Shown here: positions 7,968 to 10,249 of the stretch, one piece after another
Numbering within the stretch: the first letter of the stretch is position 1
Layout: each line of letters begins with the position of its first letter
Assembly (NCBI GenBank): GCA_026985525.1
Contig: JALSQI010000034.1
Coordinates: 1-44,084 of the forward strand
DNA: 44,084 bases
Direction of reading: 5' to 3'
Source of the DNA: Archaeoglobaceae archaeon
GTDB lineage: Archaea; Halobacteriota; Archaeoglobi; Archaeoglobales; Archaeoglobaceae
The notes under the pieces: model-generated
Database searches by the model: none
What the model was told of the DNA's origin: nothing
Seen by the model: only the letters and a program-made list of their open reading frames with translations
Position numbers and translations under genes: made by a program

Positions 7968-8040
7968 GGTGTAGTTTTTTGTAATTTTTTGACAACTAAG
8001 CAAATCAACCGTAATCATAGGCAATCACACATTAGAAAAC

Positions 8041-8074
8041 TTTATATATTTTTAGTAATCACACTGCTATAAGC
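8041..8074 (+). promoter_or_regulatory. One or two TATA elements before the GC-rich RNA candidate
   Basis: A strong tttatatatt lies at 8041-8050, preceded by gaaaac, and a weaker ctataagc at 8067-8074. The second would place the transcription start near 8097, exactly where the GC-rich island begins; the first would start near 8071. The octamer aatcacac occurs twice here (about 8023 and 8057). Confidence 0.45.
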
Positions 8075-8097
8075 TAAAAACATTAAACTCTTTGGAT

Positions 8098-8207
8098 TTT
8101 GGGGCGGGTAAGGTCGAGGTTTGTGCCTCCCTCCGTCCGAAACGATGAGGCCCGCGTAAGCGGGGTGGGATGGAGTAGGACGGGGCCGCCGTTAAAACCA
8201 CTTTTTT
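8098..8207 (+). ncRNA. Candidate structured non-coding RNA beside DUF3800
   Basis: This GC-rich island contrasts sharply with the AT-rich surroundings, the usual sign of a stable RNA in a hyperthermophile. A compact fold can be drawn by hand. An outer 5-bp helix pairs 8103-8107 with 8186-8190. A small hairpin has GAGG at 8116-8119 with CCTC at 8126-8129. An 8-bp helix pairs 8131-8138 with 8178-8185 and is contiguous with the outer helix. A distal 5-bp stem, 8151-8155 with 8160-8164, is capped by a GTAA (GNRA) tetraloop. A large purine-rich internal loop with GA steps lies between the last two helices. The tetraloop, upstream TATA boxes and the T6 run at 8202-8207 favour the plus strand. It is not a tRNA, 5S, SRP or RNase P RNA as far as I can see. 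On the minus strand it would be the 3' extension of the DUF3800 message. Confidence 0.6.
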
Positions 8208-8827
8208 AATTCTAACCTTAATTTTGGTTTGATAATCTCGTAGAACTCACATTTCCCACGTTCATAATATTGAAAAACTGCACCAGCTACAAAATCCGCA
8301 ACTTGTAAACCCGGATTCTGTTGGGAATCTTTATGGACAATTTCAATTTTTGGTGGGTTTGAACGTCCATAACTATTCAATAATTTGTGTTTCAAATACC
8401 AATTGAATTCTTTTCTTTTTTCTTCGCTCATTATAAATTTATCTACAATTATTTTGAATTCTTTTTCATTGCTGTACTCATAATTTAAGGATTCGGCTAT
8501 AAATCCTGTCAGATAATTGTGCAATTTATCTTTTCTGTTTCGTAAATAACTATAAACCATTTGTTTTTGAAGAACAATAGCAGAAAAGAGTAAATCTTCC
8601 TCTACTACTCTTTTCAAGAGTCTTTCTCGTATAACGTCATCAGATCTTGCAAATTTGAACTCAGGTATGTTTTTCTTCTTTTTACCTAAGGTCCTTCTTA
8701 CTTTTTTAATTACTCTGAACAATAATCCCAACAAGTTTCTTGTTTCTATACAAGCAATTACATAGTATTTTGTAGATTTCTTGGTAAATCCCAAATCTCC
8801 ACTTTCATCGATGAAAACATAAAGCAT
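8192..8827 (-). CDS. DUF3800 domain protein
   Basis: A 211-residue protein with the full DUF3800 signature. The N-terminal strand VFIDESGDLGF (residues 4-14) carries conserved Asp and Glu, there is an acidic VDKF in the middle, and the C-terminal motif is GLQVADFVAGAVFQYYERG. The acidic spacing suggests an RNase H-like nuclease fold. The family's function is unknown to me, and DUF3800 genes are often found in mobile or accessory positions. The stop codon lies directly against the GC-rich RNA island. A number of bacterial structured-RNA motifs were named for being next to DUF3800 genes, so the pairing may be functional. The ATG at 8827 has an AT-rich TATA-like stretch about 25 nt upstream on the minus strand and no ribosome-binding site. 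The transcript is monocistronic. Confidence 0.85.
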   Translation of the reverse strand: MLYVFIDESGDLGFTKKSTKYYVIACIETRNLLGLLFRVIKKVRRTLGKKKKNIPEFKFARSDDVIRERLLKRVVEEDLLFSAIVLQKQMVYSYLRNRKDKLHNYLTGFIAESLNYEYSNEKEFKIIVDKFIMSEEKRKEFNWYLKHKLLNSYGRSNPPKIEIVHKDSQQNPGLQVADFVAGAVFQYYERGKCEFYEIIKPKLRLELKKWF

Positions 8828-8881
8828 TAAATCGATTTTCCAGAGCTTAAAATAAAAAAATTTTTATGATTACGTTTATAC

Positions 8882-8903
8882 CCCTGACAAAACCCTTGAC
8901 AAA
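8882..8903. repeat. Tandem 11-bp direct repeat upstream of DUF3800
   Basis: CCCTGACAAAA at 8882-8892 is followed immediately by CCCTTGACAAA at 8893-8903, two near-identical 11-mers one helical turn apart. They lie between the divergent DUF3800 gene and the membrane protein gene and could be a binding site for a regulator. A second pair, two copies of cgtttaat spaced 10 bp apart (8940-8957), overlaps the probable TATA box of the gene at 8970. Confidence 0.35.
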
Positions 8904-8969
8904 TTCTAAGAAATCTAAAGAAGAGGGTGTAATAAGAAACGTTTAATTGCGTTTAATCAACTTTTTTCC

Positions 8970-9380
8970 ATGTCCTTTGGTGAAGAGAACGTAATCGGAA
9001 AATGTGCAATTAACATAGCAATTTCGTTCGGTTTTGGGTTAATTTTTGTTCTGTGGGCTTACGGGCTTTATGGCATCGTGAAAACTTTTAAGATTTACTT
9101 TTACCCGCAATACGTAGCTTTTGCGTTTGCACTGTTTTACATAATGTTCACAATACTCTTAGAACATAGAGGTGTAGAAATGCCTTACCTGCTTATTAGC
9201 GGAGCAATACTTTCGGCTTTTGCTACTTTTTTTGTTACTTGCGTAATAAACGGAATTCTGTGGCTTCAACACAACGGTTTGCCCGACTTTAATACCGCTC
9301 TATTTGAGCTATCAATATCTTCTGTTGTCGCTTTCGTGCTTGCAAAATTAATAGCTCACGGACTCAACAACAAAGTTTAA
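8970..9380 (+). CDS. Small four-helix membrane protein, unknown function
   Basis: A 136-residue protein that I do not recognise. Four hydrophobic segments are visible, roughly residues 12-35, 44-65, 74-98 and 108-130, joined by short loops, with few charges and no cysteine or histidine motif. The topology resembles small archaeal inner-membrane proteins of unknown role. The ATG at 8970 has no ribosome-binding site, but a TATA-like cgtttaatt is centred about 26 nt upstream, so the message is probably leaderless. The gene is divergent from DUF3800 and about 48 nt ahead of the spoVG gene, so the two may share a transcript. Confidence 0.65.
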   Translation: MSFGEENVIGKCAINIAISFGFGLIFVLWAYGLYGIVKTFKIYFYPQYVAFAFALFYIMFTILLEHRGVEMPYLLISGAILSAFATFFVTCVINGILWLQHNGLPDFNTALFELSISSVVAFVLAKLIAHGLNNKV

Positions 9381-9428
9381 ATACTCCCTTATCTAACTTG
9401 CCTGAAATAAGAGCAGGAGGAGTTTGAA

Positions 9429-9686
9429 TTGGTAGAAATTACGGAAGTTAGAATATACAAGGCGAAGGGAGATGGAGCTGTAAAAGCGTATGCGTCTGTA
9501 TCCCTTGACAACGAGTTTGTTGTTAAGGGCTTGAAGGTTCTTGAAGGTGAGAACGGCCTTTGGGTTAGCATGCCGAGTAGAAGGCTTAAGGATGGGTCTT
9601 TCCAAGATGTATTCCATCCAGCAAGTAAAGAGGCGAGAGAAAAGATAGTAAACGCTGTTTTAGAAGAATACAGAAAGCAGGCATAA
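9429..9686 (+). CDS. spoVG: SpoVG family protein
   Basis: An 85-residue SpoVG. The conserved core is clear: ITEVRIYK at the start, a strand around AYASVSLDNEFVVKGLKVLEG, then the GLWVSMPSRR motif and DVFHPASKEAREKI. In bacteria SpoVG binds nucleic acid and affects septation, sporulation and virulence regulation; in an archaeon only a nucleic-acid-binding role can be inferred. The start is a TTG at 9429, supported by AGGAGG ending about 8 nt before it and by the family's usual N-terminus. It follows a membrane protein gene and precedes a phosphodiesterase gene that has its own TATA-like element. Confidence 0.88.
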   Translation: MVEITEVRIYKAKGDGAVKAYASVSLDNEFVVKGLKVLEGENGLWVSMPSRRLKDGSFQDVFHPASKEAREKIVNAVLEEYRKQA

Positions 9687-9721
9687 AAACTTTTTACAAC
9701 TTTTAGATTTTAATGTATTTT

Positions 9722-10249
9722 ATGAGAATTTTGGCAATAGGTGATACTCACATTCCCGATAGGGCTGAGGGAATACCAAATGCCATAAGGAATTTTATCA
9801 GCAGAGGTTATGACATCTTAGCTTTTACAGGAGATGCTACACTCAAAAACGTTATTTCCGAAATAGCTAAGGTGAGCCGTGCTAAGAAAGTTTACGCCGT
9901 TAGAGGCAATATGGATTATTTGAACTTGCCTTTAAGGGAGAAATTTGTAGCAAAGCTAAGGTTTGGGTTGGTTCACGGACACGGAATATATCCGAGAGGG
10001 GATAGAAAACAACTTGAAGAACTTGCAATTGAAATGGGTGTTGACGTCTTAATATCGGGGCATACGCATCACCACGACGTATATGCTGGAGATGTAATTT
10101 TACTCAATCCCGGATCTGCTACTGGGGTTTGGAGCGGTGGTAATGCGTCAATGATTCCTTCAGCTATGTGCATAGAAGTCAGCGATGTTTTAAGAGTTGA
10201 ACTGTGTTTGAACGGAAGAATAGAGTTATACGAACTAAACGAGGTTTAA
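9722..10249 (+). CDS. Metallophosphoesterase, MJ0936/YfcE type
   Basis: A 175-residue dinuclear-metal phosphodiesterase of the YfcE/MJ0936 family. The metal ligands are in order: GDTHIPD near the N-terminus, FTGD, RGNMD, VHGHG and SGHTHH. Family members hydrolyse artificial phosphodiesters in vitro and the natural substrate is generally unknown. I start at the ATG at 9722, which gives MRILAIGDTH, rather than at 9713. Neither has a ribosome-binding site, and a TATA-like aaactttttac at 9688-9697 fits a leaderless message from 9722. The last 15 nt overlap the convergent radical SAM gene. Confidence 0.88.
   Translation: MRILAIGDTHIPDRAEGIPNAIRNFISRGYDILAFTGDATLKNVISEIAKVSRAKKVYAVRGNMDYLNLPLREKFVAKLRFGLVHGHGIYPRGDRKQLEELAIEMGVDVLISGHTHHHDVYAGDVILLNPGSATGVWSGGNASMIPSAMCIEVSDVLRVELCLNGRIELYELNEV

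Follow-up and report, generated by a model that had tools for sequence, protein, structure and literature searches.

A small RNA of the DUF3800-X family and a DUF3800 gene convergent with it make up a two-gene unit, which is gained and lost among related genomes. The unit described here lies in a stretch of 44,084 nucleotides from an Archaeoglobaceae archaeon (contig JALSQI010000034.1; hereafter the window), in which the 90-nt RNA occupies positions 8102-8191 of the plus strand and the gene, which encodes 211 amino acids, occupies 8192-8827 of the minus strand. The host genome contains one DUF3800-X RNA and one DUF3800 gene, and the nearest named units are found in Archaeoglobi MAGs, with DUF3800 proteins that are 73% identical.

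Identity, fold and transcription of the RNA

An earlier note on this DNA pointed to a 90-nt GC-rich island ending one base before the DUF3800 stop codon. This description holds, as the G+C fraction of 8102-8191 is 0.69 compared with about 0.28-0.42 in the surrounding DNA, and its last base, 8191, directly precedes the stop codon complement (8192-8194). The island matches the full model (positions 1-73) of Rfam family RF02984, DUF3800-X, on the plus strand (cmscan; 68.1 bits, E 4.7e-13), which is about 30 bits above the cut-off of 38.2 bits. This is the sole Rfam match within the 44 kb, and no other fitting Rfam family was found on either strand of the island. It was suggested in the note that the RNA might be a new archaeal member beside the named set of DUF3800 motifs; given the match, the RNA belongs to the named family itself, whose distribution is largely archaeal among the genomes seen here.

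The fold drawn by hand in that note (a 5-bp helix on an 8-bp helix, a small hairpin at 8116-8129, and a distal stem capped by GTAA) agrees with the model fold. P1 (5 bp) joins 8103-8107 to 8186-8190 and is followed by a near-invariant GUAAG (8108-8112), which is kept both in DUF3800-X and in relatives outside Rfam, and P2 (8 bp) joins 8131-8138 to 8178-8185. Next to P2, a conserved GAAA (8139-8142) faces AGUA (8174-8177) across an internal loop, a pattern that probably corresponds to a bulged-G (loop E-like) motif. The P3 hairpin (8151-8164) consists of the stem 8151-8155/8160-8164 and a GUAA tetraloop (8156-8159). Although the RF02984 match runs end to end, and motifs and gene neighbor are common to both, the window RNA has an insertion of 18 nt between GUAAG and P2 (8113-8130) that is missing from the Rfam consensus. 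It forms an extra hairpin (stem 8116-8120/8125-8129), which most other Archaeoglobi members also have, with stem sequences that differ among them.

The folding energy of the window RNA is only mildly unusual (7 of 200 shuffles fold as well; z -2.1), so the strong evidence for structure comes from the covariance-model match and from covariation, which covers P1, P2 and P3. In an alignment of 70 distinct DUF3800-X sequences, fitted to the covariance model, 93.6% of the cells at paired positions were paired compared with 74.4% after shuffling, and 232 cells showed double changes compared with 59 (none of 500 shuffles was as high); slid controls of the pairing gave 45-55%. The same result for P1 and P2 was obtained from an independent positional count, which carries a mild bias because the P2 register was picked per sequence. 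Covarying base pairs, for which the earlier note proposed a test among homologous loci, are present.

The plus strand is settled by the strand of the model match, by the placement of TATA elements, and by the excess of G-U over A-C (74 vs 21) at paired positions read on that strand. Of 52 archaeal loci, about 28 have their best TATA match starting between -31 and -29 relative to the RNA, and the positional profile of these loci places the TATA-like GCTATAAGC of the window (8066-8074, plus strand) near the relatives' TATA position. The conspicuous TTTATATATT (8041-8050) lies about 30 nt too far upstream for this position. A T6 run (8202-8207, plus strand) follows the RNA within the antisense of the DUF3800 3' end and is a probable terminator; T-rich sequence also follows the RNA in other archaeal loci, and in Patescibacteria loci sigma-70-like boxes were recognized by eye directly upstream of the RNA. 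A TATA element at a fixed distance together with a T-rich tail points to a separate plus-strand RNA of about 75-95 nt that is predicted to start near P1, in line with the independent plus-strand RNA proposed before.

The DUF3800 protein and the RNA at its gene tail

The protein matches PF12686 (E 4.4e-18; 66.8 bits, cut-off 21), and only this family. An AlphaFold2 model built from 72 sequences (pLDDT 93.8, pTM 0.91) has RNase HII as its closest solved fold, the best Foldseek match being 1eke (E 5.3e-6, TM 0.59/0.56), and RNase HII of A. fulgidus (3p83) is also among the best PDB matches. Five acidic residues are invariant or nearly so (D7, E8, E56, D129 and D178 in the numbering of the window protein), and, judging from strand order in the model, D7-E8, D129 and D178 appear to be placed like the catalytic acids of RNase HII, with which an N-terminal DE-[SA]-G motif is also common. 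However, the comparison of the RNase HII and DUF3800 profiles was not significant (hhalign probability 0.3%), the protein has no match to the RNase HII domain PF01351, and a PDB sequence search with it returned nothing. As the sequence profiles do not match, kinship with RNase HII is claimed for the fold only; DUF3800 further differs from it in being an accessory gene with an RNA partner. The earlier proposal of a structured RNA linked to a nuclease-like DUF3800 protein in an archaeon is supported. No relatives of the protein were found in the phage record collection. In five loci (L061, L072, L075, L076 and L080), the DUF3800 frame has no stop before the RNA and runs through its antisense strand.

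From the side of the protein, the association with an RNA is strict. In a phylum sample of 394 genomes, of which 49 carry the RNA and 36 a DUF3800 gene of the clade of the window, a tail-to-tail RNA stands at all 29 full-length DUF3800 genes (22 of type DUF3800-X and 7 of other types, read by eye). A separate scan of GTDB gave 77 assessable DUF3800 loci, and the core GTAAR-N-CC lies antisense at the gene tail in 62 of them, compared with a rate of 3.2% after shuffling and with 4 of 77 control sites upstream. By eye, an RNA was seen at all of the GTDB loci except L218, where the 3' end of the gene is adjoined by another, transposase-like (by eye) gene. A strict structural core pattern matched only 42 of the 77, a count that is too low since the RNA is displaced by gene stops and by insertions, and the shorter core test and reading by eye were used in its place. 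An Rfam match is absent from 38 of the GTDB loci, and 10 loci of non-Rfam type were re-checked at a relaxed threshold.

Several RNA types share this position. A common RNA of 63 positions, which belongs to no Rfam family, was found at 21 loci, mainly of Patescibacteria (L195, L204-L206, L217, L223, L224, L227-L230, L237, L238, L240, L244, L245, L250, L252, L254, L255 and L257). Its P1 and P2 are 100% paired, with 58 double changes compared with 16 after shuffling, and its model found a second copy in L206. Another type, with a GUGUACC-UUGA-GGUGCAC hairpin, lies behind the DUF3800 gene of several DPANN and other archaeal loci and of a Methanobacterium plasmid (L209, L239, L249, L256, L355, L358-L360 and L370), and the members tested had no Rfam match. 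DUF3800-V (RF02964) occupies the same tail-to-tail position in bacterial loci, with a distal structure different from that of the window RNA. The types have in common the order P1-GUAAR-P2 and the place at the gene tail, a likeness that is noted here without a claim of common ancestry. Further variants were observed: divergent DUF3800 genes in L363 and L364 have a further tail RNA (TTACCCATTG...GATGGGAGTGAT), beside which the 3' half of a DUF3800-X RNA is preserved in L363, and in the related loci L211, L225 and L226 the tail RNA is extended near P3 by an insertion longer than 100 nt.

Empty sites, solitary RNAs and viral contigs

At the syntenic site of a sister species (G069), argS is separated from the next gene by about 70 bp, compared with about 1 kb including the unit in the window. 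The flanks align at one site up to 8004 and from 8889, and a stretch of about 8005-8888 is missing; these ends are approximate, as the compared flanks are only 73-90% identical, and no target-site duplication was fixed. In the genus of another carrier genome (G154), one genome (G390) joins both flanks with 1 nt between them, and further species have no unit there. Likewise, among Methanoculleus-type genomes, G131 and G080 have an empty site, and G405 and G228 carry the unit at another place within the same variable region. These empty sites mark the unit as accessory. With one or two DUF3800-X copies per genome, it is unlike a proliferating insertion sequence. Proximity of units to tRNAs was checked, and no association is claimed.

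The RNA is also found without the gene. DUF3800 matches are lacking in 22 of the 49 RNA-bearing genomes, others have broken remnants, and some RNA-only loci can be derived from full units (L033 compared with L059, and L079 with L069). Such solitary RNAs retain 7.57 of the 8 P2 pairs, compared with 7.89 of 8 beside intact genes. In viral contigs, DUF3800-X RNAs occur in two records that may be fragments and in which no DUF3800 was detected, one RNA in L327 (terminase, head morphogenesis) and two in L329 (terminase, portal, major head protein); in the latter they lie between portal and terminase (8511-9976) together with two tRNAs and a QueD-like gene. A third contig (L282, with a terminase-like gene by eye) carries the whole unit, tail to tail. 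Pattern matches in viral contigs L328, L331, L332 and L392-L397 had no covariance-model score and were dropped, and a search of viral contigs with the pattern of the Patescibacteria-type RNA gave no match. The earlier note held that an island without DUF3800 in relatives would refute its reading. Such islands do exist, in the 22 genomes and the viral contigs, and they indicate a dissociable RNA-protein pair rather than no link.

Three further observations concern the surroundings of units. In L160 (G394, C171), an RNA-only copy and a second, inverted unit of RNA and DUF3800 lie between the same flanks. Just past the unit of L059 (relative positions +950 to +1148) lies a repeat, about 150-190 bp long, that is present many times in genomes of that genus. 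In the window, 9429-9686 holds a SpoVG-family gene (PF04026, E 1.2e-31), here in an archaeon, in a stretch conserved across the genomes of the family.

How the pair may work

The mechanism best supported by these data, which we favor tentatively and with slightly less than even confidence, is a type-III-like toxin-antitoxin or abortive infection system in which the RNA restrains the DUF3800 nuclease. The protein would be an RNase HII-fold nuclease that binds the DUF3800-X RNA as a non-guide partner, and the RNA, made from its own promoter, would restrain it as an RNA antitoxin. When the supply of RNA falls, for example during infection, the nuclease would be released, and RNA copies without the protein, in hosts and viruses, might act as antidotes. 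A restraining RNA fits the observation that RNA-only loci are common and protein-only loci were not seen, as well as the solitary RNAs of viral contigs and the accessory status of the unit. The excess of RNA-only loci should be read as suggestive, since the RNA is an about eight-fold smaller mutational target than the gene, so that some excess would arise even if selection played no part.

In the type III systems described so far, tandem RNA repeats precede the toxin within one transcript. The RNA here is single and convergent, which argues against the antitoxin reading, and the RNase HII-like fold of the protein is neither a ToxN fold nor an AbiF HEPN domain. The closest parallel is the abiF RNA motif, which turned out to be an RNA antitoxin (PMC12373285): as here, a conserved structured RNA stands beside a putative RNase gene in the accessory genome, but AbiF is of HEPN type and its RNA, which has two repeats, precedes the gene on the same strand, rather than as a single RNA convergent with an RNase H-like gene. 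ToxIN is likewise an RNA-nuclease pair, with a different fold and with ToxI as an RNA of tandem repeats that shares its transcript with toxN; the mimicry of ToxI by a phage RNA (PMC3475682), pseudo-ToxI, is a parallel to the viral DUF3800-X copies. Also against the antitoxin reading, one transposon screen of L. pneumophila classed a strain-specific DUF3800 gene as essential (PMC7811196), which is odd for a toxin.

A less probable explanation, at about one chance in a few, is that the RNA is a required cofactor or sensor that switches on a nuclease directed against viruses or other elements. The strict co-occurrence from the protein side and the accessory, mobile nature of the unit are in its favor, as are the reports of DUF3800 as an RNase H-fold nuclease accompanying Cas12a2, V-A2 and VI-F CRISPR loci (PMC10910872, PMC12669027) and a weak match of one member to the PADLOC defense candidate PDC-M04A (E 3.7e-7), but a pure cofactor does not explain well-paired RNAs without DUF3800 in 22 genomes and in viral contigs. 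It is improbable that the RNA has a function of its own, in host or mobile-element regulation, and that DUF3800 processes or degrades it. The RNase H-like fold and the occurrence of the RNA without the protein would suit such a housekeeping role, and the essential Legionella gene fits a protein that removes a harmful RNA; yet a harmful RNA should not last alone, as this one does in many genomes and viral contigs. An RNA-guided nuclease or transposon-like element of the TnpB/omega-RNA (IS200/IS605) type, the minus-strand layout raised in the earlier note, is very unlikely: these elements are likewise mobile units with an RNase H-fold nuclease and an RNA near one end, but here the RNA (plus) and the gene (minus) are on opposite strands rather than overlapping at a same-strand 3' end, and a terminal helix closes both ends of the RNA. 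With the 5' end predicted at P1 from the TATA spacing, and with a T-rich stretch after P1', there is no apparent room for a variable guide; there are only one or two copies per genome, no constant target was seen, and the protein matched only PF12686 and not the TnpB family. A decaying relic without present function in the window genome is just as improbable, despite the broken DUF3800 genes in many relatives, because the gene in the window has an intact frame that retains the invariant acidic residues, and the score of the RNA exceeds the cut-off by 30 bits.

Beyond the type-III-like restraint of the nuclease by the RNA, it is possible, and we propose it with more reserve, that DUF3800 and its tail-to-tail RNA constitute a separate class of RNA-restrained nucleases, with an RNase HII-fold toxin and a single convergent RNA built on a P1-GUAAG-P2 core. 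Such a class would extend over archaea, Patescibacteria and other bacteria, and would include RNA families outside Rfam, and viruses with the RNA only might counteract it. DUF3800-associated RNAs have so far been catalogued without function, and the present data bring distinct RNA families together under a single architecture. Should the antitoxin reading prove true, they would represent an added archaeal and bacterial system of RNA-controlled immunity or addiction, together with viral countermeasures.
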